From Arcobacter sp. (lineage in GTDB: Bacteria; Campylobacterota; Campylobacteria; Campylobacterales; Arcobacteraceae), in the NCBI GenBank assembly GCA_002685075.1, contig NYWO01000116.1, forward strand, positions 1-50,346: a stretch of DNA of 50,346 bases, in the 5' to 3' direction. The notes beneath the pieces were generated by a model. The model saw only the letters and a program-made list of their open reading frames with translations, searched no databases and was not told the origin of the DNA. Each line of letters opens with the position of its first letter. The stretch's first letter is position 1. A program made the translations under genes and the position numbers. Positions 28,093 to 50,346 of this stretch are shown piece after piece.

Positions 28093-28401
28093 TTATATAT
28101 TAATAAATATCATATTATCTTCAATTTTACTTTCATAAACATTAGTACATCCACTATCATTTCCAAGAACACCACCTGTTTTTAAATCAACATCCCAATT
28201 ATGCATAGGACATGTTACAACAGATTCATGAACTAACCCTTCACTTAATTTTCCTTGTTTATGTGGGCATATATTGTTGATTACAAATATTGAATCATCT
28301 CTTGTTTTAAAAATAGCTATTTCTAAATCTCCATAGTGTACTACTCTTGAACCCATTTTTGGGATATTTTCTGTTTCCGTGATTTTAATCCATTTTGCCA
28401 T
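28093..28401 (-). CDS. nirD: Nitrite reductase small subunit (Rieske-type)
   Basis: CPHKQG...CPMHNWDVDLKTG Rieske-like motif; adjacent to nirB. Confidence 0.92.
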   Translation of the reverse strand: MAKWIKITETENIPKMGSRVVHYGDLEIAIFKTRDDSIFVINNICPHKQGKLSEGLVHESVVTCPMHNWDVDLKTGGVLGNDSGCTNVYESKIEDNMIFINI

Positions 28402-30869: not shown

Positions 30870-31017
30870 TTTTAGTCCTTTTTTTCTTATGTTTAAATTA
30901 TTACTGAATATAAAATTTTATTGTATAAATATATGTATATAAAATATTCAATTTCTTAAAATTTATTTAATTTTTATAAATTATTAGCTAAATTGGTCTC
31001 AAGTAATAGTTATTTAG

Positions 31018-31037
31018 CTTAAATTTACATTAAATTT
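31018..31037 (-). promoter_or_regulatory. Nitrate-locus motif copy A (upstream of nirB)
   Basis: (-) AAATTTAATGTAAATTTAAG. Confidence 0.5.
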
Positions 31038-31038
31038 A

Positions 31039-32766
31039 TTATTTGTAGAGAAATTGGAAAAATACAATTACTCCAAGTATTAAACTTATTGATTGCCAAA
31101 ATATTAATGGATTTCTTTCAATTAAAGCTGGTTTTGTTTTATTTAAAAACTTTTTATTTGGATTTCTTAAGTCATAAATAAATTCTGAGATTTCACTATA
31201 TCTATCATTTGGATCAATAGCTAAGGCTTTTTTCAAAGCTTCATCAATCCAAAGAGGTATTTTGCTATTTTCATCTTCATAAAGAGGGGTATATTTTAGT
31301 TTCTTTTGTTGCCTAGCATTTTCACATTTTGCTATATTTGTTCCATATGGAAATTTTCCACTAAGCATTTGATATGTTATTACTCCAAGAGAAAAGATAT
31401 CAGAACGATTTGTGCCTAAATATCCTAAAAAATATTCAGGTGCAGAATAGAGTGCAGTACCTTGAAGAGAATGCTGTTGCATAACTGTATCAATATCAGC
31501 AATCCCTTCAACACGAGTTGAACCGAAATCTATGATTTTTACAGAATCACTTTCATCTATTAGGACATTTTCAGGTCTTAAATCTTGATGTAGCATCTCA
31601 AGATTATGAAAAGCATATAGCCCTTTTGCAATCTGTTCGATTATATTACGTACATTTTCAAGTTTTGGTTTTGGATTATCTTTTATCCACTGTGTTAGGG
31701 TTTGACCTTGTATATATTCACTTACATTGTAAAGAAAGTTTTTCTTTCTTGTTTGTAAGAATGACTTTACAACATGTTCATTATTTATTTTTTTTGCAAT
31801 CCAATCCTCTAATAAAAATCTTTCTAAATATGCCTTATCTTCTTGTAATTCAATTGATGGAATTTTAAGAATTACATTTTCTTTTGTTTCTTCATCAGAT
31901 GCAAGATATACATGACTTCTTGGACTTGAGCTAATATTTCTAATAATAGTATAGCCATCAAACTTTTTTCTAGCTTCTAGCATAGGAGGAAGAGGTTTAT
32001 TTTCAAGCTCTTTATTTATATCTTTTATATCTTTATTTGGAATATTATCTATTCTTACTATTTGAATAGTAAGATTATCATTGCTTCCGTTTTTTAAAGC
32101 AGTATCAACAAAAAACTTGGCAAGTTTTTCATAATCATTCTCATATTTTTCTAAGTTATCTAATAAAAAATTATCTTCAAGATATTCATAAACACCATCA
32201 GTTGAAAGTATAAAAATATCATTTTTTTCTATTGGAATTGAGTCATAATCAATAGTAAGTTGCGAATCCATTCCCATAGCACGACTTAGATAACTCTTAT
32301 CACTTGATACCCATAGTCTATGGTCTTGGCTTAACTGTTCAATTTTTTTATCTCTTACTCTATAAATTCTTGAATCACCTAAGTGAAAAATATGTGCTGT
32401 TGTTGATTTTAAAATAATTGAACTAAGAGTACAAATATACCCTTTATCTTTATTTGAGGAGTGAATACTTTTTTTTGTTTGTGAGTAAAGCCAAGAGTTG
32501 GTTGCTGTTAAAATTCTGCTGGCTGATTTTTTAACAGACCAAGTCTGAGAGGTACAATAGTAATCTTCTAGAAAGGAGTTCACGGAAATTTTACTAGCAA
32601 TATCGCTTACATCACTACTACTTATGCCATCTGCTAAAGCAATTGCGATACCTTTGTATTTTAATAAATACTCATTTGGCACACTTATACCATGAAAGTC
32701 TTGGTTAACTTCCTTGTTACCTTTAGTAGAGTATTGACCGATTGTTACTTGTAAAATATTTTTCAT
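31039..32766 (-). CDS. PP2C phosphatase - Ser/Thr protein kinase fusion with C-terminal TM anchor
   Basis: PP2C motifs (ALADGISSSD, HLGDSRIYRVRD, LSTDGVYE); kinase HQDLRPENVLID, IIDFGSTR, APEYFLG; C-terminal hydrophobic helix. Confidence 0.93.
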   Translation of the reverse strand: MKNILQVTIGQYSTKGNKEVNQDFHGISVPNEYLLKYKGIAIALADGISSSDVSDIASKISVNSFLEDYYCTSQTWSVKKSASRILTATNSWLYSQTKKSIHSSNKDKGYICTLSSIILKSTTAHIFHLGDSRIYRVRDKKIEQLSQDHRLWVSSDKSYLSRAMGMDSQLTIDYDSIPIEKNDIFILSTDGVYEYLEDNFLLDNLEKYENDYEKLAKFFVDTALKNGSNDNLTIQIVRIDNIPNKDIKDINKELENKPLPPMLEARKKFDGYTIIRNISSSPRSHVYLASDEETKENVILKIPSIELQEDKAYLERFLLEDWIAKKINNEHVVKSFLQTRKKNFLYNVSEYIQGQTLTQWIKDNPKPKLENVRNIIEQIAKGLYAFHNLEMLHQDLRPENVLIDESDSVKIIDFGSTRVEGIADIDTVMQQHSLQGTALYSAPEYFLGYLGTNRSDIFSLGVITYQMLSGKFPYGTNIAKCENARQQKKLKYTPLYEDENSKIPLWIDEALKKALAIDPNDRYSEISEFIYDLRNPNKKFLNKTKPALIERNPLIFWQSISLILGVIVFFQFLYK

Positions 32767-32827
32767 ACTATATAACCTTAGTGGAGAATAAAGGAATTTA
32801 AAATTACGCTCCAGTAAAATTATTTCT

Positions 32828-32860
32828 AAACTTTATAGGCAAGTTATGCCTATAAAGTTT
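32828..32860. terminator. Hairpin downstream of the formate/nitrite transporter gene
   Basis: AAACTTTATAGGCA-agtta-TGCCTATAAAGTTT perfect 14-bp stem. Confidence 0.6.
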
Positions 32861-32865
32861 TTAGT

Positions 32866-33702
32866 TTATGCAGCTTTTTTACTTGCTGTAGTATTTAAAA
32901 CTCTTTTTGCATTTGTTCTAACATGTGTATAATATAATGGTAGACCAACAAATAATAAACCACCAAATAAGTTACCTAAAGCAACTGGTAATTCATTCCA
33001 TAATAAGTAATCAGCAATAGTAAAATCACCACCCATAATTAATGAGAATGGGAATAAAAACATATTTACAATCGAGTGTTCAAATCCCATAAAGAAGAAC
33101 AGCATAATTGGCATCCACATTGCTAAAAATTTACCAGAAACTGAAGTTGAAACCATAGCTCCTACAACACCCATAGATACCATCCAGTTACATAACATAG
33201 CTCTAATAAATACAGTAAACCATCCATCTACTCCATGTGCAGCATAACCTAAAGTCCTAGCTTCACCAATAGCAGCAACTTTTGCAGCAATTGCTCCACC
33301 ATCAGTATTAAATCCATATGTAAAGATAAATGCCATCATAACAGCAACACTAAAAGCACCACCAAAGTTACCAAGAGCAACTAATCCCCAGTTTCTTAAA
33401 ACTTGATTTGTTGAAACACCTGGTCTTTTATCAAGCCATGCTAATGGTACTAACATAAATACACCAGTTAATAAGTCAAATTTCATTAAGTACAACATAA
33501 TAAACCCAATAGGGAATAAAGCAGCTCCTAAAATTGGAGATCCTGATTTCATTGCAACTGTAATTGCAAATACTGCTGCTAATGCTAAAACTGCACCAGC
33601 CATATATGCTCTAATTAATGTATCTTTTGTAGACATGTAAACTTTTGATTCACCTGAATCAACCATCTTGGTAACAAATTCTGAGGGCTCTAAATATGCC
33701 AT
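32866..33702 (-). CDS. Formate/nitrite transporter family protein (NirC/FocA-like)
   Basis: FNT family topology and motifs (LFPIGFIMLYLMKFDLLTGVFMLVP, NWGLVALGNFGGA, CNWMVSMGV, GFEHSIVNMFLFP, LGNLFGGLLFVGLPLYYTH). Confidence 0.93.
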   Translation of the reverse strand: MAYLEPSEFVTKMVDSGESKVYMSTKDTLIRAYMAGAVLALAAVFAITVAMKSGSPILGAALFPIGFIMLYLMKFDLLTGVFMLVPLAWLDKRPGVSTNQVLRNWGLVALGNFGGAFSVAVMMAFIFTYGFNTDGGAIAAKVAAIGEARTLGYAAHGVDGWFTVFIRAMLCNWMVSMGVVGAMVSTSVSGKFLAMWMPIMLFFFMGFEHSIVNMFLFPFSLIMGGDFTIADYLLWNELPVALGNLFGGLLFVGLPLYYTHVRTNAKRVLNTTASKKAA

Positions 33703-33885
33703 GTTATTTCCTTTTTCGTAGTTTGATTTTTGATTAAAAACATTCGTTTAAATCACTTGTAAACATTAAAACAAAGAAAGTGAGGAAAAAAATGTGAAAA
33801 TAGAATTTAGCTGTATAATAAATAACCAATCAAAAAAATACAAAGTAGTTAATATAATTTATAATATAAATAAAAAAGAGTACAT

Positions 33886-35439
33886 ATCAAAAAATCTATC
33901 ATATTTATCTTCGTCTTTTTATTCTTTCTTCTAAGCCTTTTTTTTATAATTGGGAATACAATAAAAGATTCATATAAAATACAAGAAGACTTATTAGAAA
34001 ATTCACTTAAAAATAAAGCTGTTGCTATATTTGATTTAATTGTTGATATGCGACATTGGAATGCTAAATACGATGGTGTATATATAAAAAGTGAAGAACT
34101 AACTCCTAACCCATATTTAAATCCAAATTCAATTAAATCTGAAACTGGAGAAACTCTAGTTTGGGTAAACCCAGCTTTTATGACAAGACAAATATCTGAT
34201 ATAGCAAGTAAAAGAGATGGTTTTAAATTAAAAATAACAAGTAATAAACTAATAAATAAAAACAATGCTCCTGATGAAGATGAGAAAAAGATTTTAAACT
34301 ATTTTGATGAAAATATTGAAGTTCCATATTATTGGAAAATTGAAAATAATCAATTTAAATTTATGGGAGCATTAAAAACTGAACAAAGTTGTCTTACTTG
34401 TCACTCTCATCAAGGATATAAAGTAGGTGATATTAGAGGTGGTATTAGTGTTACCTTTGATGTAAAGCAAGAGTATGAACAACTTGAGGTAATAAATAAG
34501 GAAAAAGAACAAACTATTACTTATTTGATATTTGTAGCAATTGGGGTATTAATTAGTTTTATTATTTATCTTAATATAAAAAGAAAAGATGAAAAAAAGA
34601 TTTCTAGACTAAATGAATCCTTAGAATTAAAAGTAAAAGAGCTTGATACTTTTAATAAAACTTTACATAAGAAAGTAAAAGAAGAAGTTGATAAACAAAG
34701 AGAAAAAGAAAATCTTCTTATACAACAATCAAAACTAGCAGCACTAGGTGAAATGATAGGAAATATAGCGCATCAATGGAGACAGCCTATTAGTGCAGTA
34801 AGTGCTATTATGATGAATATAAAATGGACAGCAATTTCACAAGGTGTTGATAAAGGTTTTTTAGATGATAGAATGAAAGAGGCAAATGAGCAGTTAAAAT
34901 ATATGTCTGAAACTATAGATGATTTTAGAACCTTTTTTAAACCAAATAGAGAAAAAGAGTATTTTAATTTAAAAGATGAGGTGAAAAAAGCTTATCATAT
35001 TTTAAAAGCCTCTTTAGAAAATCAAAATATAAATCTTCAAATACATTCAAAAACAGTTATAACAGCTTATGGTTATGCAAATGAATTTTCACAAGTTGTA
35101 CTAAATATAATCTCAAATGCTAAAGACGTACTTATAGAAAGAGAAATAATCAATCCAAAAATTGATATCTATTTGAATTTAGATAAAGATAATATTTATT
35201 GTGAAATAAAAGATAATGGCGGAGGAATAAAAGAAGAAATAATTGATAAAGTATTTGAACCATATTTTACAACTAAAGAAGGTCATGGAACAGGTATTGG
35301 TCTTTATATTTCAAAAGAGATTATCCATAAGCATATGAAAGGAAGTCTAAAAGTTAAAAATATTGATAAGGGAGTGACTTTTATTATCTCAATTCCATTT
35401 AAAAAGGAGGAAAGTTGTGGAAACATTAAAAAGGCTTAA
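33886..35439 (+). CDS. DUF3365 (Tll0287-like) histidine kinase with a CxxCH heme-c motif; start codon uncertain (tracked ORF starts at 34048)
   Basis: In-frame hydrophobic N-terminus upstream of 34048 (..KKSIIFIFVFLFFLLSLFFIIGNTIKDSYKIQEDLLENSLKNKAVAIFDLIVD); 'QSCLTCHSHQGYKVGDIRGGISVTF'; H-box 'GEMIGNIAHQWRQPIS'. Confidence 0.85.
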   Translation: MKKSIIFIFVFLFFLLSLFFIIGNTIKDSYKIQEDLLENSLKNKAVAIFDLIVDMRHWNAKYDGVYIKSEELTPNPYLNPNSIKSETGETLVWVNPAFMTRQISDIASKRDGFKLKITSNKLINKNNAPDEDEKKILNYFDENIEVPYYWKIENNQFKFMGALKTEQSCLTCHSHQGYKVGDIRGGISVTFDVKQEYEQLEVINKEKEQTITYLIFVAIGVLISFIIYLNIKRKDEKKISRLNESLELKVKELDTFNKTLHKKVKEEVDKQREKENLLIQQSKLAALGEMIGNIAHQWRQPISAVSAIMMNIKWTAISQGVDKGFLDDRMKEANEQLKYMSETIDDFRTFFKPNREKEYFNLKDEVKKAYHILKASLENQNINLQIHSKTVITAYGYANEFSQVVLNIISNAKDVLIEREIINPKIDIYLNLDKDNIYCEIKDNGGGIKEEIIDKVFEPYFTTKEGHGTGIGLYISKEIIHKHMKGSLKVKNIDKGVTFIISIPFKKEESCGNIKKA

Positions 35440-36097
35440 AGAAAAAACTATATTATTAGTAGAAGATGAATTAATTATAAGAAATAATATTGCTTCAATG
35501 TTAAAGTTTTTCTTCAAAGAAGTATATACAGCAATGGATGGATATGAAGCAATAGATAAGTATGAAGAGCATCTTCCTGATATTGTAATGACAGATTTAA
35601 AAATGCCAAATATGACAGGTTTTGAACTTATAGAAGAGCTTAAAAAAAGGTCAAGTACTTCATATACGATGATTGTATCTGCACATACAGATACAGACCT
35701 TTTAATAAATGCAATTCATAATGGAGTAGATAGATATATAATCAAACCAGTTACTGAAGATGAGCTTTTTGAAGCGTTTGAAGCTTACTTAAAAAAGTTT
35801 GATGAAGAAGTACCAAAAGTATTTACTCTATCTTCTAATGTTAGTATTGATTTAGATAAGCATATAGCACTTGTAGAAAAAAATGAGATACATTTAAATA
35901 AAAAAGAAACAGAACTTTTAACTCTTCTTTATGTTGATATGAATAAGACAATAACTTATGAAGAAATAGAGAGTAAAATGTGGGGAAGTGATTCAATGAG
36001 TTTAGCTGCAATAAGAAGTGTGGTTAGAGACTTAAGAAAAAAAATAGGTCAAGAGTATGTTGTCAATGTCTCTGGAACTGGTTATAGATTAAAGTAG
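35417..36097 (+). CDS. OmpR-type response regulator, cognate of upstream HK
   Basis: Receiver (LLVEDELIIRNNI, DIVMTDLKMPNMTG, IVSAHTD, YIIKPV) and winged helix (LAAIRSVVRDLRKKIGQEYVVNVSGTGYRLK); overlaps HK 3' end. Confidence 0.94.
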   Translation: METLKRLKEKTILLVEDELIIRNNIASMLKFFFKEVYTAMDGYEAIDKYEEHLPDIVMTDLKMPNMTGFELIEELKKRSSTSYTMIVSAHTDTDLLINAIHNGVDRYIIKPVTEDELFEAFEAYLKKFDEEVPKVFTLSSNVSIDLDKHIALVEKNEIHLNKKETELLTLLYVDMNKTITYEEIESKMWGSDSMSLAAIRSVVRDLRKKIGQEYVVNVSGTGYRLK

Positions 36098-36099
36098 GG

Positions 36100-36127
36100 A
36101 GTAGTTAAGATTGATATCTTAACTACT
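36100..36127. terminator. Bidirectional terminator
   Basis: AGTAGTTAAGAT-tgat-ATCTTAACTACT-TTTTA between convergent genes. Confidence 0.75.
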
Positions 36128-36596
36128 TTTTATTCATCATTGACATTCTTTTTTCTTTTTTTAAATCCATTAATACTTTAAACTGTTCTTTTTGTTTTGG
36201 AGTTAAAACTTTATAAACTCTATCCATCATTTCAGCTTTAAGTTCAATCTTATTATCTCTTTTTTGTTTCATTATTTCTATGAATTTTGCTTTATCAAAT
36301 GAATTATTTGTAAATGCTACATTTGGAGTAACTCTATTTTTCATTAAATCTTGTTTGATATTGCGGATTTGGTTTTGTTGATCTTGCGTTAAGTTTAGTT
36401 TTCTTAATAGTGACATTGGTCCTTTTTGTGCTTTGTGATGACCTTTTTTCATCATGTGTTTTCCACTTTTCATTGCACAAGAATTATTTCCTTTATCCAT
36501 TCCTTTTTTCATCATACCTTGACCATTGCATGATGCATAAAGACCTGTACTTAAAACTGCTGTTAAAGCTGTTGCTACTAATAATTTTGTTTTCAT
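36123..36596 (-). CDS. Spy/CpxP-like periplasmic protein, Met/His/Lys rich
   Basis: Signal peptide; two LTxxQ-type motifs (LNLTQDQQNQ, LTPKQKEQ); MMKKGMDKGNNSCAMKSGKHMMKKGHHK segment. Confidence 0.75.
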   Translation of the reverse strand: MKTKLLVATALTAVLSTGLYASCNGQGMMKKGMDKGNNSCAMKSGKHMMKKGHHKAQKGPMSLLRKLNLTQDQQNQIRNIKQDLMKNRVTPNVAFTNNSFDKAKFIEIMKQKRDNKIELKAEMMDRVYKVLTPKQKEQFKVLMDLKKEKRMSMMNKK

Positions 36597-36820
36597 TTTA
36601 TAACCTTTTATATAGTTTTTTATTTGTTACAGTGAAAGTATGACATGGGTGTTTTAATCGTTTATGAATCTTGTATTAATGGTATATTAACGGGCTGTTT
36701 TCTCTTTGAAAATAATTGAAGTAATATTTCTAACTTTATATATGATTTTGTGTTTTGAAGGTTCCTAGTATGAGTGTTTGATGTTCAAATAAATAAAATT
36801 ACTTTTTAAGTATGATTTTA

Positions 36821-36857
36821 AAAGAAAAAGAGATTAATTATAAATCTCTTTTTCTTT
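36821..36857. repeat. Left copy of ~37-bp near-direct repeat (also a self-complementary hairpin)
   Basis: AAAGAAAAAGAGATTAATTATAAATCTCTTTTTCTTT; 34/37 identical to 37956-37992. Confidence 0.8.
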
Positions 36858-36878
36858 GATGAAGTGACTTGTTAGAAG

Positions 36879-37841
36879 TTACATTAGAGCTCTTTGTAAA
36901 GCTTCTTTAATTTCTTGTCTAGTATCACCTGAAATGATAAATATTTTTTGATTGCATGAAAGATCATTGTGCTCATCAATTAGTTGCTGTGTTCTTTTGG
37001 TAACTCCCGACTTAGCAACTAAAATACCACCCTTATCTAAACTATTAGCTAAATATAAAAACTCCCGAGCTGTTCCAAGACCTAACAAATTTTTATAAGC
37101 TTTAACCTCAACAACTAACTCTTTACCATTAACCTCTGCTATAAAATCAATACTTCGATTTGAAGATAATTCACTATTCTTCTTTAGTATCGATAATTCA
37201 TCAAGAACTTTACCCACCATATTTTCAAATTCATATGCCGCATGAATATTCTGACTATGAGAGTTCATTACATAATTATTTGAGTTTTCTGATGATGAAA
37301 TATCTACTTCTATCTCTTTATCATCTTTATTCTTCACAAATATACTAATTATTGCTAATAAGGCAAATATTAAGGATATGACACTTCCCACAATAGAAAT
37401 AAGCTCATAATCATTACTGGGTTTAGAAATAGGAGTATTAGGTTCTTTATATTGTTTTCGTAATTCTTTTATATTTTGGATTAATACATTTCTTTTTTCT
37501 AAAGGAATAAATTTATTTTTCAAAAATTCATTCTGTATTTGGTTCAATAATTCCGTAGACGTAAATTTATATACAATTGAGTAGGAAAGTTCTTTTCCTG
37601 TTATTATAGATTCAATGTCTTTTAATGTTATCGGTTGCTCATAAAATACCAATTCTTGAATGTCAGATACCAACTCGCTATGGGCAGAATTTTGTTTACT
37701 AATAGTTATATCTTTTACATAATCAGGTACATAAAAGAAACCTACATATATTGTTGCAATTACACCTATAAAACTAAACAAGTTCCAAAAGTTGGAAATT
37801 GCCCAATTTATTAAATCTTTAAGTTTATCCCATAGGAACAT
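36879..37841 (-). CDS. Membrane protein with two TM helices and C-terminal Mrr-like / PD-(D/E)xK restriction-endonuclease-type domain
   Basis: 'NRSIDFIAEVNGKELVVEVKAYKNLLGLGTAREFLYLANSLDKGGILVAKSGVTKRTQQLID' nuclease-like; TM at residues ~18-34 and ~150-168. Confidence 0.75.
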   Translation of the reverse strand: MFLWDKLKDLINWAISNFWNLFSFIGVIATIYVGFFYVPDYVKDITISKQNSAHSELVSDIQELVFYEQPITLKDIESIITGKELSYSIVYKFTSTELLNQIQNEFLKNKFIPLEKRNVLIQNIKELRKQYKEPNTPISKPSNDYELISIVGSVISLIFALLAIISIFVKNKDDKEIEVDISSSENSNNYVMNSHSQNIHAAYEFENMVGKVLDELSILKKNSELSSNRSIDFIAEVNGKELVVEVKAYKNLLGLGTAREFLYLANSLDKGGILVAKSGVTKRTQQLIDEHNDLSCNQKIFIISGDTRQEIKEALQRALM

Positions 37842-37955
37842 CGATAATCCTTGTAACTTCTAAATGTTTATTCAAGGGATACTATATCTAATTAATATTT
37901 AAATACATTATTAAAAGACATAGAACGTGTATTTTGTAAAACTAGAATATTTAAG

Positions 37956-37992
37956 AAAGAAAAAAAGATTAGTTACAAATCTCTTTTTCTTT
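37956..37992. repeat. Right copy of ~37-bp near-direct repeat, overlapping the 3' end of nasA copy 1
   Basis: AAAGAAAAAAAGATTAGTTACAAATCTCTTTTTCTTT. Confidence 0.8.
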
Positions 37993-40299: not shown

Positions 40300-40300
40300 A

Positions 40301-41899
40301 CTAACCCCTTTGATTCCCAGCGAAGAAATTCCCAGCAAGACCTAAAGCAACTGCTGTTTTATAAAATAAAAGTCTAGATATTATTTCACTTGAAAATGAA
40401 ATAATAATACTTAAACCTAAAACCAAAATAGTACTTGAATAACTCCCACTTGCAAGTAATAACATAGCAAGTAGAGGTAAAGCTAATGCCCCAATACTTA
40501 AAGACCTTTCTCTATATTCATTATACTTAGCAAAGTTATCTTCATATAAAATCTTTGTTTTATTTAATTGGTAGAAATTATCATCTTTTTCTTCTAAATT
40601 TGTATAAAAGTTTTTTTGTTTAGTAAACTCTTCAAATTGAAAGTATCCAAAAAATAGTGCAAATGGTAATACAACTCCAGCAGTTGTATATTGTTCATTT
40701 AAAGCTAAAATTAAAGTAATTAACAATATTCCTATATATGATACATAGAAGAATATTTTTGTTGTTTCTTTTTTATTCCAAGAAGGTCTTGCTTTAATTC
40801 TATAAATCATAGATTGAGCATAAATACCATATATCCCAGTAGTAAGAACACCAAGTTCAACTATAAACCTAAAAGTTTGATTGAACTCAAAAAAGAATAT
40901 AGCTATAAGAAGTGTAAGACCACCTGCATAAACACCAAGTGCTAAAGCCTCTCTACTTAACCATGATGTTTTTATATTCTTCATTGCAGTATATGCAAGT
41001 CCTGGACGTCCTAAGTGTAATGCTGATAAAGGTAATCCAATAGCAGCAGGTATAAATACTGCAATTATCATCCATATATTTGGCATTGCTAAATTAAATC
41101 CAAGTAGATTTATAAACTCACCTAAAACTAATGTAGCAAAACCACCTACAGATATTTGAGTTAAAATAGTCATAAATACTAAAGGCCATTCTGAATGGTT
41201 TGGTTTAATTATATGATTATCTGCAGGGGTAACTTTTGCATTTTTCTCATCTTCATCTATTGTATATCTTGTTGTTGGTTTAGTAATCTCAATATTTGGA
41301 AGATGAGGTGCAACACCTTGCTCGGCCATATCTTTTTCTACCCAATCTTTTACATTTACTATTTCAATAGCAATTGCACCTGCTGGACAGGCTTGTACAC
41401 ATGCAGGAGTTTGACCAACATCTAGCTTTTCATGACACATATGACATTTTGTAACTATTCCTCTATCTTCATTAAAAACTGGCACTTCATAAGGACAGTT
41501 CCAAGTACAGTATTGACATCCAATACATGTATCATCATCATGGAAAACAATACCATTATCAAATTTTATATATGATTCTGTAGGACAGCCTTTTAAACAC
41601 TCAGGATCAACACAGTGATTACATGACATTGAGTTAAAGTGATTTGAAACATTTGGAAAAACTCCACTTTGAGTTTCCCCAACTCTTCTCCATTTAATAT
41701 CTGCGCTATTTCCATTTTGTTCATTACATGCAACTTCACAACAATGACAACCAACACATGCAGTTGCATCAAAATGGAATCTATATTGTTCCCCTTCTTT
41801 AGGTTTAGGAATATCAATACTATAATTTCCACATTGCATATTAGTATCTGCTTTATGATTTATAAAGTCTTCTAATGGAGTTGTTTCGTTTGCACTCAT
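40301..41899 (-). CDS. DmsB-type 4Fe-4S ferredoxin subunit fused to DmsC-type membrane anchor
   Basis: Multiple Cx2Cx2Cx3C clusters (CVGCHCCEVAC, CNHCVDPECLKGC, CIGCQYCTWNC, CHMCHEKLDVGQTPACVQAC) followed by several TM helices. Confidence 0.92.
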   Translation of the reverse strand: MSANETTPLEDFINHKADTNMQCGNYSIDIPKPKEGEQYRFHFDATACVGCHCCEVACNEQNGNSADIKWRRVGETQSGVFPNVSNHFNSMSCNHCVDPECLKGCPTESYIKFDNGIVFHDDDTCIGCQYCTWNCPYEVPVFNEDRGIVTKCHMCHEKLDVGQTPACVQACPAGAIAIEIVNVKDWVEKDMAEQGVAPHLPNIEITKPTTRYTIDEDEKNAKVTPADNHIIKPNHSEWPLVFMTILTQISVGGFATLVLGEFINLLGFNLAMPNIWMIIAVFIPAAIGLPLSALHLGRPGLAYTAMKNIKTSWLSREALALGVYAGGLTLLIAIFFFEFNQTFRFIVELGVLTTGIYGIYAQSMIYRIKARPSWNKKETTKIFFYVSYIGILLITLILALNEQYTTAGVVLPFALFFGYFQFEEFTKQKNFYTNLEEKDDNFYQLNKTKILYEDNFAKYNEYRERSLSIGALALPLLAMLLLASGSYSSTILVLGLSIIISFSSEIISRLLFYKTAVALGLAGNFFAGNQRG

Positions 41900-41901
41900 G
41901 A

Positions 41902-43497
41902 TTAAAGACCAATTCTTGTTTGAATTTCTTCTATTTCTAAATGTGATAAAACTCTTGTATCAAAACTTTCAAAAGTTTCATTCTCTTCTTTTTCATTTTT
42001 ATAAATAGAGATAAGTTCCCCTACTAATTCTTGTGCTTTTGGTATTGGTACAGCTTTTGTTAATTGTCTAGCTTCTAAAATAGAAGAGGCTGCTTTTCCA
42101 CCAATAAAAACTTTAACACCATAACATGAATTTCCTTCTTCATCTTTAGCTTTTGCACCCTCAAATCCAATATCAGCAACACCATGAATACCACATCCTT
42201 TAGGACATGCAGACCAGTACATTCTAACTTTTCCATCTTGAATTGGTACGTTTGTATTTAAATAATGAGCCATTTCAATTGCATCTGGTTTCCCAAGAAT
42301 TACTCCAAATGAACACTCATTTTTTCCAGCACATGCAATTTGGTTATTGAAGTAAATATTATGATATGAGTCATATTTTGTATAAAGAGGTGATTGTTTT
42401 ATATCTTCAATATTCTCTTTATCTGTAATTATATAAAAACTTTGCTCATACGTTAATCTAATAACTCCATCATATTTTTGCGCTAATAATGCAGCTTCTT
42501 TTAAGTCACTTCCACAAAATATTCCTGATGGAATACTAAAGTGAATAGCACTTTTATTATTCTTTAACTCAATTGTTGAAGAATCATCAAGTATAAATTC
42601 ATCTTTTACTAGTAGCTCACCTGCATTGCTTAAAGGAAGTTTTGAATACTCTTTAATTGCCTTTGCAAACTCTTCTAAACTTACTGCATCTAAAAGGAAA
42701 GTTAATCTATTTTTATTTCTATTATCTCTAAATCCATACTCTTTATATAAAGAAATTACAGATGAGAATACTTCTTTTACTTGATTTGGTTTAACAAAAA
42801 GATTTAAATCTCTAGCTTGAATTCCAACTTTACCACCTAGGTATAAGTTAAATCCAAACTCTCCATCTTTTTTTGCTAATGCAAAAGCACAGTCATTACC
42901 AAAAATATTACATGTATTTATACTATCACCTAATATTGCAATATTAAATTTTCTAGGAAGATTTCCCATCCAAGCCTCTTGTTTGTAAAATACTGATTGG
43001 ATTTCTTGAAGTAATGGCATAGTTTCTATTGGAGATGTTTTAGAATATGAGTCAAAAGGAGATGTTACTACACCTCTAAAGTTATCACCTGCACACTGAA
43101 TAGCAGTTATTCCTACCGAGTCTAACTCTTTAAGTAATTCAGGAAGTTCATTGAACTTTAAATATCTAAATTCAACTTGTCCTCTTGTTGTAATATCTAT
43201 ATAATCATTTCCATATTTTTTTGAACATTCTGAAAGTTTTAAAGCTTGTTCAACTGATAATTGTCCACCTGGAATTCTAATTCTAATTACAAAAGTATCA
43301 CTTGTTCCTTTGTCATATAATCCCAGACATTTTAAGAAGTGTTTTGTGTGAGAGTCTGTTACAGTTTCTTCATACTCTCCTTTACAAAATTCTTCAAAAG
43401 ATTTAATAAAATCCATAGGATTTTGTTCTGATTTCATCTTTTCAATTTTGTTGATTTTCTTATTTCTTAAATTATGTGCTTCTTCTAAAACTTTCAT
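41902..43497 (-). CDS. nirA: Ferredoxin-type nitrite (sulfite) reductase
   Basis: Siroheme/4Fe-4S motifs 'CAGKNECSFG...CPKGCGIHG'; half-domains with 'RGQVEFRYLKFNELPELL'. Confidence 0.88.
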   Translation of the reverse strand: MKVLEEAHNLRNKKINKIEKMKSEQNPMDFIKSFEEFCKGEYEETVTDSHTKHFLKCLGLYDKGTSDTFVIRIRIPGGQLSVEQALKLSECSKKYGNDYIDITTRGQVEFRYLKFNELPELLKELDSVGITAIQCAGDNFRGVVTSPFDSYSKTSPIETMPLLQEIQSVFYKQEAWMGNLPRKFNIAILGDSINTCNIFGNDCAFALAKKDGEFGFNLYLGGKVGIQARDLNLFVKPNQVKEVFSSVISLYKEYGFRDNRNKNRLTFLLDAVSLEEFAKAIKEYSKLPLSNAGELLVKDEFILDDSSTIELKNNKSAIHFSIPSGIFCGSDLKEAALLAQKYDGVIRLTYEQSFYIITDKENIEDIKQSPLYTKYDSYHNIYFNNQIACAGKNECSFGVILGKPDAIEMAHYLNTNVPIQDGKVRMYWSACPKGCGIHGVADIGFEGAKAKDEEGNSCYGVKVFIGGKAASSILEARQLTKAVPIPKAQELVGELISIYKNEKEENETFESFDTRVLSHLEIEEIQTRIGL

Positions 43498-43537
43498 AGT
43501 CTATCTCCAAATATATTATATTTGTAAGTTTAGCTAT

Positions 43538-43557
43538 AAATTTATGTAAATTTAAAG
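43538..43557 (+). promoter_or_regulatory. Nitrate-locus motif copy B (upstream of nirA)
   Basis: AAATTTATGTAAATTTAAAG. Confidence 0.45.
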
Positions 43558-43599
43558 TTAAACTATATAAAAAATAGACATATTGATATTTTATAGTTT

Positions 43600-43619
43600 A
43601 AATTTTATGTAAAATTAAG
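43600..43619 (+). promoter_or_regulatory. Nitrate-locus motif copy C (upstream of nirA)
   Basis: AAATTTTATGTAAAATTAAG. Confidence 0.45.
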
Positions 43620-43621
43620 TT

Positions 43622-45613
43622 TTATAGAATTTTTTCAATTTTTACTGCTGAATGATTATAATCAGGCTGAAGTGATTCTTTATCTAATAAATCATTTGTT
43701 AAGTAGTTTATTTCTCTATGACTTACGGGAATAAAAATTGTATCTTCTTTAATTTTATCTGTTATTATAGCTTTTGATTCTATCTCTCCTCTAAGAGAAG
43801 AAATTTTAATAAAATCACCATCTTTAAGATTTAATGCTTTTGCATTTTTAGGATGAATTTCACAAAAGTTTAATTCTTTGAATTTTAAAAGAGTTCTTGG
43901 AAGATTTGTTTTTGTTCCACTATGCCATTGATCTCTTGTTCGACCTGTTAAAAGTATGAAAGGATATTTTAAATTTGTTTTTTCACTAAGAAGTTTATTT
44001 TGAACAAAGTGAAGATTAGCTTTTTTATTTTCTGTAAAAAACTCTTTTTCTTTTCTGATTTTTTCTCCCCAAATAAAAGGTTCTTCTCTTAGTTTTTTAT
44101 ATGAAGTTTCACTCATATTTAAATGAGGGTTTAACTTTGTCATTTCTTGAAACTCCTCAAAAATATCTTGACTACATGAATAATTAAACTCTTTTGAAAA
44201 GCCTAACTCTTGTGCTAGAAGTTGAAAAATCTCCCAATCTGCCTTACAATCAATTGAAGACCTTGTTAACTTTTCTTGTTTTGTAACTGTTCTATCTAAG
44301 TTTGTTTGCGTTCCTTCTTTTTCACCCCAAGGAGCAGCAGGAAGTTTTATATGAGCAAAGTTTGAAGTCTCTGAGTTTTCATAAGCATTCAACTCAACTA
44401 CCATTGGAATTTTTTGAATTAACTTCTCAACTTTATTTCTATTTGGTAAATGGTAAACTGGGTCAGTATGACAAATAATTAAGATATCTAAATTTGCACT
44501 TAGCATTTGTGTTGCAGTAAGACCTGGCTTTTTATCAATTTTTTTTGTATTCCAAAATTTGGAAACTTTTTTGATAGACTCTGCATCAAAACCTAAATGA
44601 ACTGCAAGCATAGTTGAAAGTCCACCAACTTCTCTTCCACCCATTGCATTTGGTTGTCCTGTTAGAGAAAAAGGTCCATTTCCATCTTTAAATATTTTCC
44701 CAGTTAAAAGATGTGTATTTATTAATGCAAGATTTTTATCAACTCCTTGTGAAGATTGATTTAAACCCATTGTCCATGCTGATATAATATTTTCATTATT
44801 TTTATATAAAAGCCAGAACTCTTCAAATTGCTCTTTTGTTAAACCTGTTCTTTTTAGCATTTTTGTTACAGGAATTCTTTTAAACTTATTAGTTAATAGT
44901 TCATAATTATTAACATGTGTTTTTACAAACTCTTCATCAACAAGTCCTTCATCAATTATTCTTTTTGAAAGTAAGTTAAAAAAATCTATATCGCTATTAG
45001 GTTTTAAAGGAAGATGTAAATCTGCAATTTTTGCAGTATCTGTAAATCTAGGATCAATAACTACAATTTTTAAACCAGCTTTTTTTGCTTTTTTTATTCT
45101 ATTGTGAAATACAACATGGGCTTCAGCAGTATTTGCACCAGCTAAAATAAGTAAGTCTGCTTTATGCACATCTTCCATTCTAACAGGAACATAATCAATA
45201 CCAAAAGCTTTTTTATGTGCACTTACAGCACTTGACATACAAGTTCTACTGTTTGTATCAACATTATTTGTGCCAATAAAACCTTTACCTAATTTATTTG
45301 CAATATAGTAATCTTCCGTTAGAAGTTGTCCTGATAGATAAAAACCAATCTTTTCTTTTGAAGTTTTTTTAATTTTTTCTGCAACTGCAGATATTGCATT
45401 TTCCCAAGAAGTTACTTTATATTGATCACTTATATCTTCTCTAATATGAGGTCTTAATAATCTTGTTGGTGTTTGAATACTTATTAATTCAGAAATACCT
45501 TTTGAGCAAAGTTTTCCTTCATTTGTTGGATAAACTACATCTCCAATTAGTTTATTTTCTTCAAATTCTAGACCACATCCAACACCACAATACCCACACA
45601 CTGACTTTATCAT
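43622..45613 (-). CDS. Molybdopterin assimilatory nitrate reductase catalytic subunit, copy 2
   Basis: 'CGYCGVGCGLEFEENK', 'ISAWTMGLNQSSQGVDKNLALINTHLLTGKI', 'GRTRDQWHSGTKT'. Confidence 0.92.
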   Translation of the reverse strand: MIKSVCGYCGVGCGLEFEENKLIGDVVYPTNEGKLCSKGISELISIQTPTRLLRPHIREDISDQYKVTSWENAISAVAEKIKKTSKEKIGFYLSGQLLTEDYYIANKLGKGFIGTNNVDTNSRTCMSSAVSAHKKAFGIDYVPVRMEDVHKADLLILAGANTAEAHVVFHNRIKKAKKAGLKIVVIDPRFTDTAKIADLHLPLKPNSDIDFFNLLSKRIIDEGLVDEEFVKTHVNNYELLTNKFKRIPVTKMLKRTGLTKEQFEEFWLLYKNNENIISAWTMGLNQSSQGVDKNLALINTHLLTGKIFKDGNGPFSLTGQPNAMGGREVGGLSTMLAVHLGFDAESIKKVSKFWNTKKIDKKPGLTATQMLSANLDILIICHTDPVYHLPNRNKVEKLIQKIPMVVELNAYENSETSNFAHIKLPAAPWGEKEGTQTNLDRTVTKQEKLTRSSIDCKADWEIFQLLAQELGFSKEFNYSCSQDIFEEFQEMTKLNPHLNMSETSYKKLREEPFIWGEKIRKEKEFFTENKKANLHFVQNKLLSEKTNLKYPFILLTGRTRDQWHSGTKTNLPRTLLKFKELNFCEIHPKNAKALNLKDGDFIKISSLRGEIESKAIITDKIKEDTIFIPVSHREINYLTNDLLDKESLQPDYNHSAVKIEKIL

Positions 45614-45665
45614 TTTTTAACCTTAACTTATTACTATGTTTAATTTATATTCATAAGTATACTGT

Positions 45666-45684
45666 AAATTAATGTAAAGTTAAG
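45666..45684 (+). promoter_or_regulatory. Nitrate-locus motif copy D (upstream of nasA copy 2)
   Basis: AAATTAATGTAAAGTTAAG, followed by a partial copy AAATTAATGTATAG. Confidence 0.5.
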
Positions 45685-45710
45685 AAATTAATGTATAGAT
45701 TTTATACTTA

Positions 45711-47336
45711 TTACAGTAATTTCATTAGCAAAATAAAATTAAAAATCAAAAGAAAATAAAAACCAAATTTATAAACTTTTAAAGGGTTCCTTTCTAATAA
45801 GGGTGTGTTTTTATTAAAAAATGCTGGTACTTTATTTGGATTGTCTAGTTCATACTTCATTAATGAATAGTTTGAATATCGAAGTTCATCATCAGCACAA
45901 GTTGATCTTAAAATAATATTTTCTAACCATTCAGGGATATTTTTATTATATTTTTGAGGCAATTTTATATTTTTAAAACTAGGGTTTTGAAAAGGCTCAA
46001 TTTCTCCATAAGGAAACTCTTTTGTAAGTGCTTCATATAAGGTAACTCCAATTGAATAAATTTCAGTCTTTTCATTTATTGCTGCTTCCTTAAATCTTTC
46101 AGGTGCTAAATATGAAGCTGTTCCTGCTTTGTTGACAAGAGAGAATATTTCTGTAATAGAACCAAAATCAATAACTTTAAAGATCCTTTTATCATCTCTT
46201 TGCATTACTATAATATTTTCAGGTTTTATATCTCCATGAACTAAGTTATATTTTAATAGATACTGAGTCATTGATAAAAGAGTTTTTGTAAGTGTAATCG
46301 CATCATCAATAGATAAAGTTCTTTTTTTAAGATACTGTTTTAAAGTGATTCCATCTAGTTTTTTCATTATATAATATCGAGCAGTTCTATTTTTAGGAAC
46401 CTCACAGTTAGGGAAAAAACCAGCTTTTAATCTTTTCGCATTCCAGACTTCTTTTATATATAAATCTAAAATATCCTCATTTTCCAAAGCTTCATAGGGT
46501 GCGAATTTTATCACATACTCTTCTTCATCTTTTTTACAAACCCATGTTCTATCATTTTGTATTAAAGATAAGGTAAGTTTATATCCATCAACAATATCAC
46601 CTTTTTTAAGTTTTTTAGGAATACTTAAATCTAGATTTTTCATTTTTTCTATTTCATCTGTATCATTAACTTCCAAAACAACAGCACTTGTATCATCAGG
46701 AAGATTATCTTCCATTAAAGAACTTGCTTTTTTTACAAGGCTATATGCTCCATTCTCTAGATGTTTTATAATCAAATTTTCACTCATAACAGAATAAAGA
46801 CCATCACTACAAAGTAAAATTCTGTCATCTTTTTGAATATTATTTTCAAAGTAGAATATTTCTATATCTTTATCAATACCAACAGCATCAGTTAATACAC
46901 TATCCATTCCTTCTTCATTGTGATCGTGTGAAAGTTGAGATAAATCTTTATTTCTATATAAATAAATTCTACTATCCCCAACATTTGCTCCATAAAGTCT
47001 ATTTCCTTTTATAACTGCGACTGTTACCGTAGTTACAAGTTCAGGTCGCTCATAATCTTGTATTGATTGAGCATATAAAATTGAATTAATTGAACTAATA
47101 AAAGTTTTTAAAGCTTTTTCAATACTCCAAGTTTTTGGAATATTTTTAAAATTTGTAACAATATGTTGTGCAACTTTTTTTGCTGCTTGTGCACCTTCTT
47201 CAGCTGAGCCTACTCCATCACAAAGAACAGCAATAGTAAGGTCATTTAATTGTTTAATTTCATAGTAATCATCACCAATAATTTCTTCTCTTTTTGCAAG
47301 TGAAAATCCAGAAGTTTTAATATTGTTTTTACTCAA
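45711..47336 (-). CDS. Second PP2C phosphatase - Ser/Thr protein kinase fusion with C-terminal TM anchor
   Basis: PP2C (VLCDGVGSAEEG, VGDSRIYLYRN, LCSDGLYSVM); kinase VHGDIKPENIIV, VIDFGSITE, APERFKE; C-terminal hydrophobic helix. Confidence 0.93.
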   Translation of the reverse strand: MSKNNIKTSGFSLAKREEIIGDDYYEIKQLNDLTIAVLCDGVGSAEEGAQAAKKVAQHIVTNFKNIPKTWSIEKALKTFISSINSILYAQSIQDYERPELVTTVTVAVIKGNRLYGANVGDSRIYLYRNKDLSQLSHDHNEEGMDSVLTDAVGIDKDIEIFYFENNIQKDDRILLCSDGLYSVMSENLIIKHLENGAYSLVKKASSLMEDNLPDDTSAVVLEVNDTDEIEKMKNLDLSIPKKLKKGDIVDGYKLTLSLIQNDRTWVCKKDEEEYVIKFAPYEALENEDILDLYIKEVWNAKRLKAGFFPNCEVPKNRTARYYIMKKLDGITLKQYLKKRTLSIDDAITLTKTLLSMTQYLLKYNLVHGDIKPENIIVMQRDDKRIFKVIDFGSITEIFSLVNKAGTASYLAPERFKEAAINEKTEIYSIGVTLYEALTKEFPYGEIEPFQNPSFKNIKLPQKYNKNIPEWLENIILRSTCADDELRYSNYSLMKYELDNPNKVPAFFNKNTPLLERNPLKVYKFGFYFLLIFNFILLMKLL

Positions 47337-47405
47337 ATCTTTGCCTTTTTTATATATTTAATATATATCTAAATTAAAATTCTTTTTAAGAGTCTTAATT
47401 TAAAT

Positions 47406-47431
47406 ATAAAAAGAGCCCAAGCTCTTTTTAT
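47406..47431. terminator. Terminator at the narK-like 3' end
   Basis: ATAAAAAGAGC-ccaa-GCTCTTTTTAT. Confidence 0.75.
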
Positions 47432-48708
47432 ATTCTACCACCAGCACTAACTCCCCAAGTAGTTCTCCATCTTGTTTTAACAAGTGAAATACCTGAAATT
47501 GCAATAAATACAACAAGAGCAAAGATTAAGAATCCAGCTGTATATCCATCAAATACACCTTTTGACCAACCTAATGTTTGTATTAAAGCAGTACCACCAA
47601 GTCCTCCTGCACATCCTACAATTCCTGTCATAATACCAATATCTTTACCAAATCTTTGAGGAACTAATTGGAACACAGCTCCATTTGCCATACCAAGATT
47701 TGCCATAATTAAGAATAATACTAAAATTGCAACTGCAAATGGTAGAGCAATAGTTGCATTAATTATTGCCAATAGGGCTACTGTTCCATAAAAATAGTAT
47801 AAAGATCTAATTCCACCAATTTTATCAGCAATTGCTCCACCAACTGGTCTTAAAACAGCACCTGCAAAAATACATAAAGCCCCAAAATATCCTGCAATTA
47901 CTTTTACATTTCCTTCATCTAATACATCAAGTCCAAAGGCTGACATATCAACTTGATAGGTATTCATTAGATAAACTTTCATATATCCGGCAAATCCTAC
48001 AAAACCACCAAATGAAACAGCATAAAATAGACAAAACCACCATGTATCTTTATCTTTTAAAAGTTTACCATAGTCTTTTAATTTCTTTGGATTCTTTTTA
48101 TATACATCTTCTGGTGCATCTTGTGCAAGGAAGAAATAGGCAATTAAAACGATAATAGCCATAAATGCTCCAACTCCAAATACAGATTCCCATCCCCAGA
48201 TTTCTGCAATCTTTGGAGCAAATAAGAAGTCAATTACCACACCAATATTACCAGCACCTGCAATTCCTAAAACAACACCTTGTAATTTTGGTGGATACCA
48301 TTGACCAGCTTGTGGAAGTGCAACTGCAAATGATGCACCAGCAAAACCAAGACCAAGTGCCACAATTAATAATTGATTATAAGAGATTTCATTTCCTAAT
48401 AAATATGCTGTTAATAGTGCAGCAATTACAATAGTTTGTGAAATAAGTGCTGTTATCTTAGCTCCTAATTTATCAACACCAAATCCTAATAGAACTCTTA
48501 ATATTGCACCTGAAAGAATTGGAAGTGAAAGTAAGGTAGCTTTTTCACTTGCTGTCATTATATGACCTGTTAAAGCTAATGCTTCACTAATCTCTGTACT
48601 TAATGGACCTAACATTGTCCAAACCATAAAACTCATATCAAAGTATAAAAAAGCCATAAACAATGTTGGTGCATGTCCTTGACCTTTTAAATCTCTTAAT
48701 CCTGCCAT
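47428..48708 (-). CDS. MFS nitrate/nitrite transporter (NarK/NasA type)
   Basis: 12-TM MFS; nitrate-signature-like 'GLGFAGASFAVALPQAGQWYPPKLQGVVLGIAGAGNIGV' and 'FLIMANLGMANGAVFQLVPQRFGKDIGIMTGIVGCAGGLGG'. Confidence 0.94.
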   Translation of the reverse strand: MAGLRDLKGQGHAPTLFMAFLYFDMSFMVWTMLGPLSTEISEALALTGHIMTASEKATLLSLPILSGAILRVLLGFGVDKLGAKITALISQTIVIAALLTAYLLGNEISYNQLLIVALGLGFAGASFAVALPQAGQWYPPKLQGVVLGIAGAGNIGVVIDFLFAPKIAEIWGWESVFGVGAFMAIIVLIAYFFLAQDAPEDVYKKNPKKLKDYGKLLKDKDTWWFCLFYAVSFGGFVGFAGYMKVYLMNTYQVDMSAFGLDVLDEGNVKVIAGYFGALCIFAGAVLRPVGGAIADKIGGIRSLYYFYGTVALLAIINATIALPFAVAILVLFLIMANLGMANGAVFQLVPQRFGKDIGIMTGIVGCAGGLGGTALIQTLGWSKGVFDGYTAGFLIFALVVFIAISGISLVKTRWRTTWGVSAGGRI

Positions 48709-48819
48709 TTTATTCCTTTAATGTAATTATAAGTTTATTATATAGTTCATAGTTACAAATCATCTTTTATATATGTATAATTTATATCCAATTGAATAAT
48801 ATAAATACTATCTGTCTAA

Positions 48820-48838
48820 AAATTTATGAAATATTAAG
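48820..48838 (+). promoter_or_regulatory. Nitrate-locus motif copy E (narK/nrtA divergent region)
   Basis: AAATTTATGAAATATTAAG. Confidence 0.45.
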
Positions 48839-48900
48839 TTAAAAACTTAAAATAGAAAATATAAAACTAGAAAAAATCTATTTTAAAGAAATGATAAATT

Positions 48901-48920
48901 AAATTTAATGTAATATTAAG
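48901..48920 (+). promoter_or_regulatory. Nitrate-locus motif copy F (narK/nrtA divergent region)
   Basis: AAATTTAATGTAATATTAAG. Confidence 0.5.
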
Positions 48921-49020
48921 ATTAAATGTATAAAAAATATCCATTAAATTGTATCTTTTTTATTTTCACTGTGTTACTATTGAAGATGAAAAACATTGAC
49001 GTTAATCAAAAGGAGAAAAG

Positions 49021-50346
49021 ATGATTAAGCAGGTTCTAAAAATTGGGTTAGGTGTATCTATTGTTGCAAGTACATTATTAGCAGCTCCAGAGAAAACAAA
49101 ATTAAAAATAGGTTTTATTGCATTAACTGATTGTGCACCATTAGTAATTGCAAAAGAGAAAGGTTTCTTTAAAGCTGAAGGTTTAGATGTACATGTTGCA
49201 AAAGAAGGTGGTGGATGGCCTGGAATTCAACAAAAAGTAATTTCTGGTGAATATGACTTCTCACACGCACTTGCAGGTATGCCAATTGCTGCAACTTTAG
49301 GAATCAATGGAAATGCCCATTTACAAGCTTTATTATCTTTAGACTTTAATGGTAATGCAATTACATATGGTAATAATATTATAAAAGAGATGGAAAAGTA
49401 TGGTTTAGATAAAACTGAAAGACCAGTAACTGCAGCATCTTTAAAAAAATATATTGATGCTAAAAGAGCAAAAGAGGGTAAAAACTATCAACCTTTAAGT
49501 TTTGGTATGGTTCATCCTGTTTCTACTCATAACTATGAATTAAGATACTGGATGGCTTCATCTGGAATTAGACCTGATCAAGATTGTACGATCAAACCTT
49601 TCCCACCACCAACAATGCCATCAAATTTAATTGCTGGTAATATTGAAGGTTACTGTGTTGGTGAGCCTTGGAATTCAAGAATTGTACTTAAAGGTAAAGG
49701 TTCTGCACTTGTAACAAACTATGATATTTGGAATAATAATCCAGAAAAAGTTTTACAAGCAAGAGCTGATTTTGTTAAGAAAAACCCTGAAACTACAAAA
49801 GCAGTTATGCGAGCAGTTATTAAAGCTCAAAAATGGTTAGATGAATCTTGGGAAAATAGAGAAGAAGCAATTGGATACTTAGCTAAAAGAAACTATGTAA
49901 ATGCTCCAAAAAATGTATTAAGAAAGTCAATGAGCGGAACATTCCTTTATAACAAAGGTGTAGATTCAGCAAACCCTATGTTTAATGTATTTGCAAATAA
50001 CTATGCGGCTTATCCATTCTACTCACATGGTATGTGGTTTGTTACTCAAATGTATAGATGGGGACAATTAGACAAGCCAGTTGATATGAAAGCATTAATT
50101 GAAAAAGTTTATAGACCAGATTTATTTGCAGAAGTTGCAAAAGAAGTTGATTATAAATTACCTCCAAGCCCATGGAAAAAAGATGGTGTTGATGAATACA
50201 ACAAATTCTTAGATGGTAAAGTTTGGGATCCAAATAAAGCTGTTGATTATATCTTTGATGTAAAAGTTCAAAACTCTTTAGTATCAAAAGAAGATTTAAT
50301 GAAAGCTAACAAATGGTCTGTTGAAACTGTTCAACCAAAATATGAG
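49021..50346 (+). CDS. nrtA: Nitrate ABC transporter substrate-binding protein (NrtA-like), truncated by window edge
   Basis: Manual translation MIKQVLKIGLGVSIVASTLLAAPEKTKLKIGFIALTDCAPLVIAKEKGFFKAEGLDVHVAKEGGGWPGIQQKVISGEYDFSHALAGMP...; AAGGAG RBS; not in ORF track (no stop in window). Confidence 0.93.
   Translation, partial: MIKQVLKIGLGVSIVASTLLAAPEKTKLKIGFIALTDCAPLVIAKEKGFFKAEGLDVHVAKEGGGWPGIQQKVISGEYDFSHALAGMPIAATLGINGNAHLQALLSLDFNGNAITYGNNIIKEMEKYGLDKTERPVTAASLKKYIDAKRAKEGKNYQPLSFGMVHPVSTHNYELRYWMASSGIRPDQDCTIKPFPPPTMPSNLIAGNIEGYCVGEPWNSRIVLKGKGSALVTNYDIWNNNPEKVLQARADFVKKNPETTKAVMRAVIKAQKWLDESWENREEAIGYLAKRNYVNAPKNVLRKSMSGTFLYNKGVDSANPMFNVFANNYAAYPFYSHGMWFVTQMYRWGQLDKPVDMKALIEKVYRPDLFAEVAKEVDYKLPPSPWKKDGVDEYNKFLDGKVWDPNKAVDYIFDVKVQNSLVSKEDLMKANKWSVETVQPKYE

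Follow-up and report, generated by a model that had tools for sequence, protein, structure and literature searches.

The nir operon of cyanobacteria is controlled by NtcA, a global regulator, together with NtcB, a pathway-specific one (cited in PMC3898017). Here, we describe a possible counterpart of this pairing in a 50,346-nucleotide stretch of DNA from an Arcobacter sp. (hereafter, the window), in which genes of nitrate assimilation (nas genes) are preceded by two short elements, a directional repeat named the A-box and a dyad named the B-box. The window makes up an entire contig (G000:C34) in a draft genome of 2.68 Mb. The closest relatives of its nitrate reductase-like protein NasA2 belong to Poseidonibacter ostreae (93% identity) and P. 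lekithochrous (91%), and the source is therefore a Poseidonibacter-like member of the Arcobacteraceae in Campylobacterota. The control of nitrogen assimilation is essentially undescribed for Campylobacterota in the literature that we searched, and no description of the A-box motif was found in the same search. This group is abundant in marine and sulfidic waters.

The NtcA-NtcB system and the present loci appear to share the pairing of global and pathway-specific control at nitrate-assimilation promoters, with the global regulator also controlling amt genes. However, the NtcA box (GTA-N8-TAC) is centred at -41.5, whereas the B-box, a dyad of odd length, is located at -52, and the A-box is direct, directional and helically repeated; the NtcA box is essentially absent from our set of 113 promoters (4/113). 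A second likeness concerns HP1043/HsrA of Helicobacter pylori, a member of the same bacterial class, whose site TTTAAG-N5-TTTAAG (PMC8345958) and the A-box both have A/T-rich, TTAA-containing half-sites spaced 11 bp. The A-box differs in its first half-site (TTWATG) and in a regulon confined to nas genes, and the exact HP1043 consensus occurs in none of the 113 promoters. The NtrC site, TGCACC-N5-GGTGCA, resembles the B-box in being a 17-bp dyad with TG...CA ends and a 5-bp centre, but NtrC acts with sigma54 and the -10 elements of the present promoters are of the sigma70 type; neither the GG-N10-GC sigma54 promoter nor a GCAC...GTGC site was detected in the 113 promoters. With the TnrA/GlnR box of Bacillus (TGTNA-N7-TNACA), the B-box shares the 17-bp dyad, the TGT...ACA ends, a location approximately 50 bp before the start and a nitrogen regulon including amtB and nas genes, yet the fifth position is T in the B-box and A in the TnrA box, which is found in 0/113 promoters. 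The Nss-type dyad, TTAAC-N4-GTTAA, of even length like the NtcA and FNR boxes, is likewise missing from all 113, and the FNR box TTGAT-N4-ATCAA is present in one. The Nss regulators of Wolinella and Campylobacter are Crp-Fnr proteins that respond to nitrate, NO and N2O and control respiratory genes (PMC6682613), thus offering nitrate-responsive regulation within the same phylum but with different targets. The A- and B-boxes are ordinary in kind, namely putative transcription-factor sites, and new in their particulars.

The A-box at nitrate-assimilation genes

An initial annotation of the window, made from the letters alone, had described six copies of a motif in which TTWATG and TTAA(A)G start 11 bp apart, and had regarded it as a locus-specific operator for nitrate regulation. 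All six copies were found at the same coordinates and on the same strands, each of them upstream of nas genes, and five match the exact pattern TTWATGWAANNTTAAG; a seventh A-box (48718-48733, plus strand) had been overlooked. Our assignments of the nearby genes also agree with the earlier ones (nirB, a nirA-like gene, two NasA/NasC-like molybdopterin enzymes, a DmsB-DmsC-like membrane partner, narK and an nrtA-like gene). The window has five exact matches, whereas 200 dinucleotide shuffles yielded 0.05 on average and never more than one, and the 702 bp of nas intergenic DNA contain seven A-boxes at no more than one mismatch, compared with a mean of 0.04 in shuffles (P about 0.001). The locus specificity claimed for the motif was borne out by a scan of the whole 2.68-Mb genome, where the exact pattern occurs only at five sites, all of which are nas promoters. 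Elsewhere in this genome, matches with up to one mismatch, about half of which fall within open reading frames (ORFs), do not exceed a reversed-pattern control (18 vs 24 in total).

The expectation that the motif would be conserved upstream of orthologous nas genes was likewise confirmed, in approximately 30 Arcobacteraceae and in Sulfurimonas/Sulfurovum-type genomes. In the Arcobacteraceae, the consensus TTWATGTAANNTTAAG is located 5' of nasA, nirA, nirB, narK and nrtA. The comparison set consisted of 104 Arcobacteraceae genomes, some of them incomplete drafts, 31 of which have a NasA2 of at least 75% identity and 73 of which do not. Among the exact matches to the GTAA form in the 31 genomes, 54 of 62 lie within 50 kb of nasA2, whereas the other 73 genomes contain 19 such matches (approximately 0.26 per genome), which equals the off-locus rate in nas genomes and represents background. 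Twenty A-boxes outside nas loci were inspected: three precede nirB in G060, G020 and G075, and the others lack a B-box and are background-like. No A-box of comparable score exists among 690 kb of further sequence, most of it from related genomes. The nas loci of the window and of its relatives (38 loci) contain 113 A-boxes at no more than one mismatch, all of them outside ORFs and, with few exceptions, 4-290 bp 5' of nasA2, nirA, nirB, narK or nrtA, and the set of 113 promoters yielded 122 A-boxes vs 0.5 in shuffles. Distances to the start codon are nearly constant, for instance approximately 101-104 bp for most nrtA sites and 146-161 bp for nirB. Positions 6 and 16 are near-invariant G on the same strand, and the A-box therefore has a direction. 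On the strength of these sequence comparisons, the A-box is a real, conserved, nitrate-gene-specific operator-like element in many Campylobacterota.

The B-box and the joint geometry of both elements

Aligning the promoters side by side revealed a second element that is absent from the initial annotation, which had also missed the fixed geometry between the two elements and the helical phasing of the A-boxes. This B-box is a 17-bp dyad, TGNNTA-N5-TANNCA. In 103 of the 113 promoters its position weight matrix (PWM) score is higher than in 99% of shuffled regions; since the matrix was trained on the same promoters, this comparison is somewhat generous. Six of the ten promoters below threshold belong to nirB or nirA genes that lie inside an operon and lack a separate promoter. 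A regularity that played no part in the training is the distance to the -10 element: for 80 out of 101 promoters, the best hexamer begins 39-41 bp from the centre of the B-box, which places the B-box at about -52. At comparable score, 690 kb of other, mostly related DNA contain a single B-box, in a coding region. The amtB promoters carry a B-box and no A-box in all six cases tested (L084, L085, L113, L256 and, at a contig end of the window's own genome, L319), with the B-box lying approximately 75 bp 5' of amtB in three relatives, two of which have it before both amtB copies, and in one more distant Campylobacterota genome; in the own genome it is located between amtB and an ankyrin gene.

The A-box next to the B-box occupies one of two positions, being centred 21-24 bp upstream of it in sense orientation at nrtA and nirB, and 23-24 bp downstream in antisense orientation at nasA2 and nirA, with the TTAAG end facing B in nearly all adjacent pairs. 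Other A-boxes lie 49-131 bp from the B-box. Neighbouring A-boxes share the strand in 32/32 pairs, and their spacings (62-63, 71-73, 82-84, 94-95 and 105-106 bp) correspond to 6 to 10 helical turns, with phasing at 10.5 bp reflected in a Rayleigh R of 0.83 (unique spacings, R=0.77, p about 3e-4), although the species are not independent. The same geometry was observed out of sample, with matrices trained on Arcobacteraceae only, in Sulfurimonas-, Sulfurovum- and Nitratifractor-type loci, where 21 of 34 nasA2 promoters contain an A-box, all 15 A-B offsets are +24/+25 or -70/-71, and eight of nine A-A spacings are 94-95 bp.

In the window, nirB (28401-30869, minus strand; TIGR02374) is preceded by a B-box (TGAATATTTTATATACA, 30934-30950, PWM score 17.9), a degenerate proximal A-box with two mismatches (TTAAATAAATTTTAAG, 30955-30970, minus strand), whose position is kept in relatives at 84-87 bp from the nirB start, and, 63 bp from it, the exact distal A-box 1 (TTAATGTAAATTTAAG, 31018-31033, minus strand), 148 bp from the start and within the range of the relatives. 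The nirA-like gene for a sirohaem nitrite reductase (41902-43497, minus strand), which forms an operon with the dmsBC-like gene and nasA1, has a B-box (TGTCTATTTTTTATATA on the minus strand, 43564-43580, score 13.0) centred 75 bp from its start. Its proximal A-box 2 (TTTATGTAAATTTAAA, 43541-43556, plus strand) is 24 bp from the B-box centre and 63 bp from the exact distal A-box 3 (TTTATGTAAAATTAAG, 43604-43619, plus strand), and has one mismatch, position 16 being A instead of G with the G displaced one base further. The gene nasA2 (43622-45613, minus strand), encoding a NasA/NasC-like molybdopterin oxidoreductase, has a B-box at the consensus position (AGTATAAAATCTATACA on the minus strand, 45692-45708) and, 24 bp from its centre, the exact A-box 4 (TTAATGTAAAGTTAAG, 45669-45684, plus strand), which covers the -35 region.

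Upstream of narK (47428-48708, minus strand; TIGR00886 is the best family, under its curated cut-off), A-box 7, the overlooked copy (TTAATGTAATTATAAG, plus strand, one mismatch), lies 9 bp from the start codon, over the predicted transcription start site and ribosome-binding site; this distance is 9-10 bp in ten loci of the relatives and the window. The narK B-box (TGGATATAAATTATACA on the minus strand, 48774-48790, score 18.1) is centred 40 bp from the start of the predicted -10 hexamer TATAAT (48737-48742, minus strand), as in most promoters. Between narK and nrtA, A-box 5 (TTTATGAAATATTAAG, 48823-48838, plus strand), exact to the W form, is 105 bp from A-box 7 and 82 bp from A-box 6 (TTAATGTAATATTAAG, 48905-48920, plus strand), which is exact and has the top PWM score in the window (25.0). 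The B-box of nrtA (TGTATAAAAAATATCCA, 48927-48943, score 17.5) is followed by a predicted -10 hexamer, TACTAT (48975-48980, plus strand), that starts 40 bp from its centre. The nrtA-like gene itself (49021-50346, plus strand) is truncated by the contig end and encodes an ABC substrate-binding protein of an SsuA-type family, with a score below the cut-off.

Further B-boxes were noted in related genomes. Tandem duplicated amtB-glnB pairs close to the nas locus (L084:14876-18152 and L113:12480-15763) each have their own strong B-box and no A-box, and one B-box also precedes an amino-acid ABC binding protein. A double-Cache-domain protein (L302:2182-4200) with a B-box approximately 76 bp upstream could likewise belong to the nitrogen regulon; its longer relative with a CheW-like domain adjoins the nas loci in L218, L222 and L226.

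Possible roles of the elements and candidate regulators

Judging from these patterns, the A-box is probably a sequence-specific, directional operator for a regulator devoted to nitrate assimilation, standing beside the B-box, a second operator at about -52 of sigma70-type promoters that would also control amtB. Because the B-box precedes both amtB and nas genes, and the A-box, together with B, precedes nas genes only, we infer that the B-box serves as an operator of general nitrogen limitation and the A-box as one specific to nitrate. The B-box may be bound by a general nitrogen-limitation activator of Campylobacterota, and the A-box by a partner responsive to nitrate or nitrite. This partner would be able to reach the protein on B from both sides, its position being about -76 in nrtA and nirB and about -28 in nasA2 and nirA. 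Cooperative or looped binding could be made possible by further A-boxes located 6-10 turns off on the same DNA face (one of them, in narK, over the start site). Under such control, nas genes would be fully on only if nitrogen is short and nitrate is present, and amtB would need nitrogen shortage alone; taken together, the two boxes resemble a two-input switch that would govern the use of nitrate.

Several observations weigh against this interpretation. The nas-positive genomes G044, G046, G049 and G050 have a B-box and no recognisable A-box, and the A-box is therefore not obligatory. In narK no A-box is adjacent to B, and the genome as a whole contains 35 B-box sites at no more than one mismatch vs 44 for a reversed control counted in the same way. 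No tested OmpR, LysR or AraC gene tracks the A-box, Crp/Fnr, NarL, GntR, ribbon-helix-helix and other families not having been surveyed. Furthermore, we infer the nitrate role of A and the nitrogen-limitation role of B from the genes that carry the boxes.

It is improbable that a single regulator serves both boxes, for example a LysR-type tetramer for which B is the recognition dyad and A the activation dyad. A T-N11-A dyad in both boxes (TTAAT-N5-ATTAA, TATA-N5-TATA), present in B and imperfect in A, the centre spacing of 21-25 bp, which fits two dimers, and a near-universal LysR-type protein, 86-96% identical across the tested Arcobacteraceae and the sole one of its type found in G097, speak for such an arrangement; however, amtB promoters have B without A, A-boxes are found on either side of B, at up to 131 bp from it and over the narK start site, their two invariant G residues on one strand are not dyad-like, and the LysR gene has no neighbouring B-box. 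We also regard as distinctly unlikely a model in which B alone activates and a repressor acts through the A-box, its effect being lifted by nitrate or brought about by ammonium. The narK A-box over the predicted start and ribosome-binding sites, the overlap of the nasA2 and nirA A-boxes with the -35 region and a phasing of 6-10 turns that would fit a repression loop are consistent with repression, but at nrtA and nirB the A-box nearest B is upstream of it, a poor site for simple repression, and the fixed A-B face is more like that of cooperating activators.

The 11-bp direct repeat of TTWATG and TTAAG, with a near-invariant G in both half-sites, recalls the operators of the OmpR/PhoB family, such as that of HP1043 (PMC8345958), and the idea of tandem half-sites in the initial annotation was sound as regards the repeat, though no OmpR-type regulator of matching distribution was found among those compared; the OmpR-type geometry of the A-box is, as sequence, a resemblance only. 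Binding by an OmpR/PhoB-type response regulator (RR) with wider duties, other than the one proposed in the initial annotation, is unlikely but deserves some weight: all RRs common to the A-box genomes G097, G104 and G107 also occur in the nas-negative G012 and G014, yet the A-box is nas-confined. The particular RR proposed earlier (35417-36097, plus strand) is a highly improbable binder of the 11-bp repeat, so that the operator half of the earlier reading stands and its choice of regulator does not. This RR and its kinase adjoin nirC in several loci, but orthologs of at least 62% identity exist in just 14 of the 104 genomes (the window's own counted), they are missing (best match below 45%) in the A-box genomes G006, G010, G011, G021, G022, G030, G036, G066, G073, G091-G094 and G099, and they also occur in genomes that lack an A-box or a close NasA2, the latter being the case for G085; this mismatch places it outside the system on present evidence. 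Chance repeats in very A/T-rich intergenic DNA, or an RNA leader element, can hardly be credited at all, as chance is already refuted by the shuffle tests and family-wide counts, and a leader is opposed by the mixed orientation relative to the gene, a location outside the likely transcript and the lack of an Rfam match.

Other candidates were rejected on distribution as well. A second RR on the same contig (RR2, 17319-18005) is widespread in nas-negative genomes and has no close ortholog in the A-box genome G073, and the degenerate RR P0001 is present in G097 alone. AraC-family proteins are absent from G097 and represented by one each, mutually unrelated, in G104 and G107, none tracking the A-box, and in the tested genomes no nas-specific LysR was detected. 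The exclusion of the tested regulators is strong but not absolute, the comparison including incomplete drafts. No DNA-binding gene is consistently nas-linked in the 38 Arcobacteraceae loci and approximately 40 loci of other Campylobacterota, and no A- or B-box suggestive of autoregulation was found near the OmpR, LysR and AraC genes scanned. Directly before PKP2-nasA2, two loci (L218:116-4726 and L222:3502-8121) encode a two-component system composed of a kinase with an NMT1/THI5-type, NrtA-like periplasmic sensor and an OmpR-type RR, a possible nitrate sensor in those two genomes; it was seen at those loci only, and its RR has no close ortholog among the compared RRs.

In its widest form, our interpretation of A and B as paired operators would amount to a hitherto undescribed two-regulator code of Campylobacterota, which lack the usual nitrogen-control boxes in the present promoters. 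A global nitrogen element B at -52 would be joined by a directional, nitrate-specific A that docks on either side of it and recurs in exact helical phase at distances of as many as 10 turns, the regulator of A belonging to a family outside those recognised here; we advance this code tentatively, as somewhat less than probable. The A/B code would at once give testable criteria for delimiting a nitrogen regulon and a nitrate regulon throughout the class, both boxes could serve as bait sequences for capturing two regulators, and the promoters offer a clear example of promoter logic in which distances are fixed and repeats are helically phased.

Signalling and accessory genes of the nas region

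Two PP2C phosphatase-Ser/Thr kinase fusions are encoded within the nas region of the window (31039-32766 and 45711-47336), the latter of which is the signalling gene most regularly found at the locus, being conserved next to nasA/narK across Campylobacterota (15 of approximately 40 distant loci). In many Aliarcobacter-type genomes, nasA2 is adjoined by cyclic di-GMP phosphodiesterases with protoglobin-EAL (L091:3084-4334) or receiver-PAS-EAL (L090:3566-5578) architecture. Adjacent to nasA1, a DmsB-DmsC fusion of 532 aa (40301-41899) suggests an assimilatory-type nitrate reductase apparently equipped with a quinol-linked membrane anchor. In several loci a cyanase gene adjoins nirC and a Tll0287-type kinase/RR pair (L110:7325-7780, c16), and a DUF2071 gene located between narK and nrtA is flanked by A-boxes on both sides (L083:5118-5780 and L113:7281-7943).

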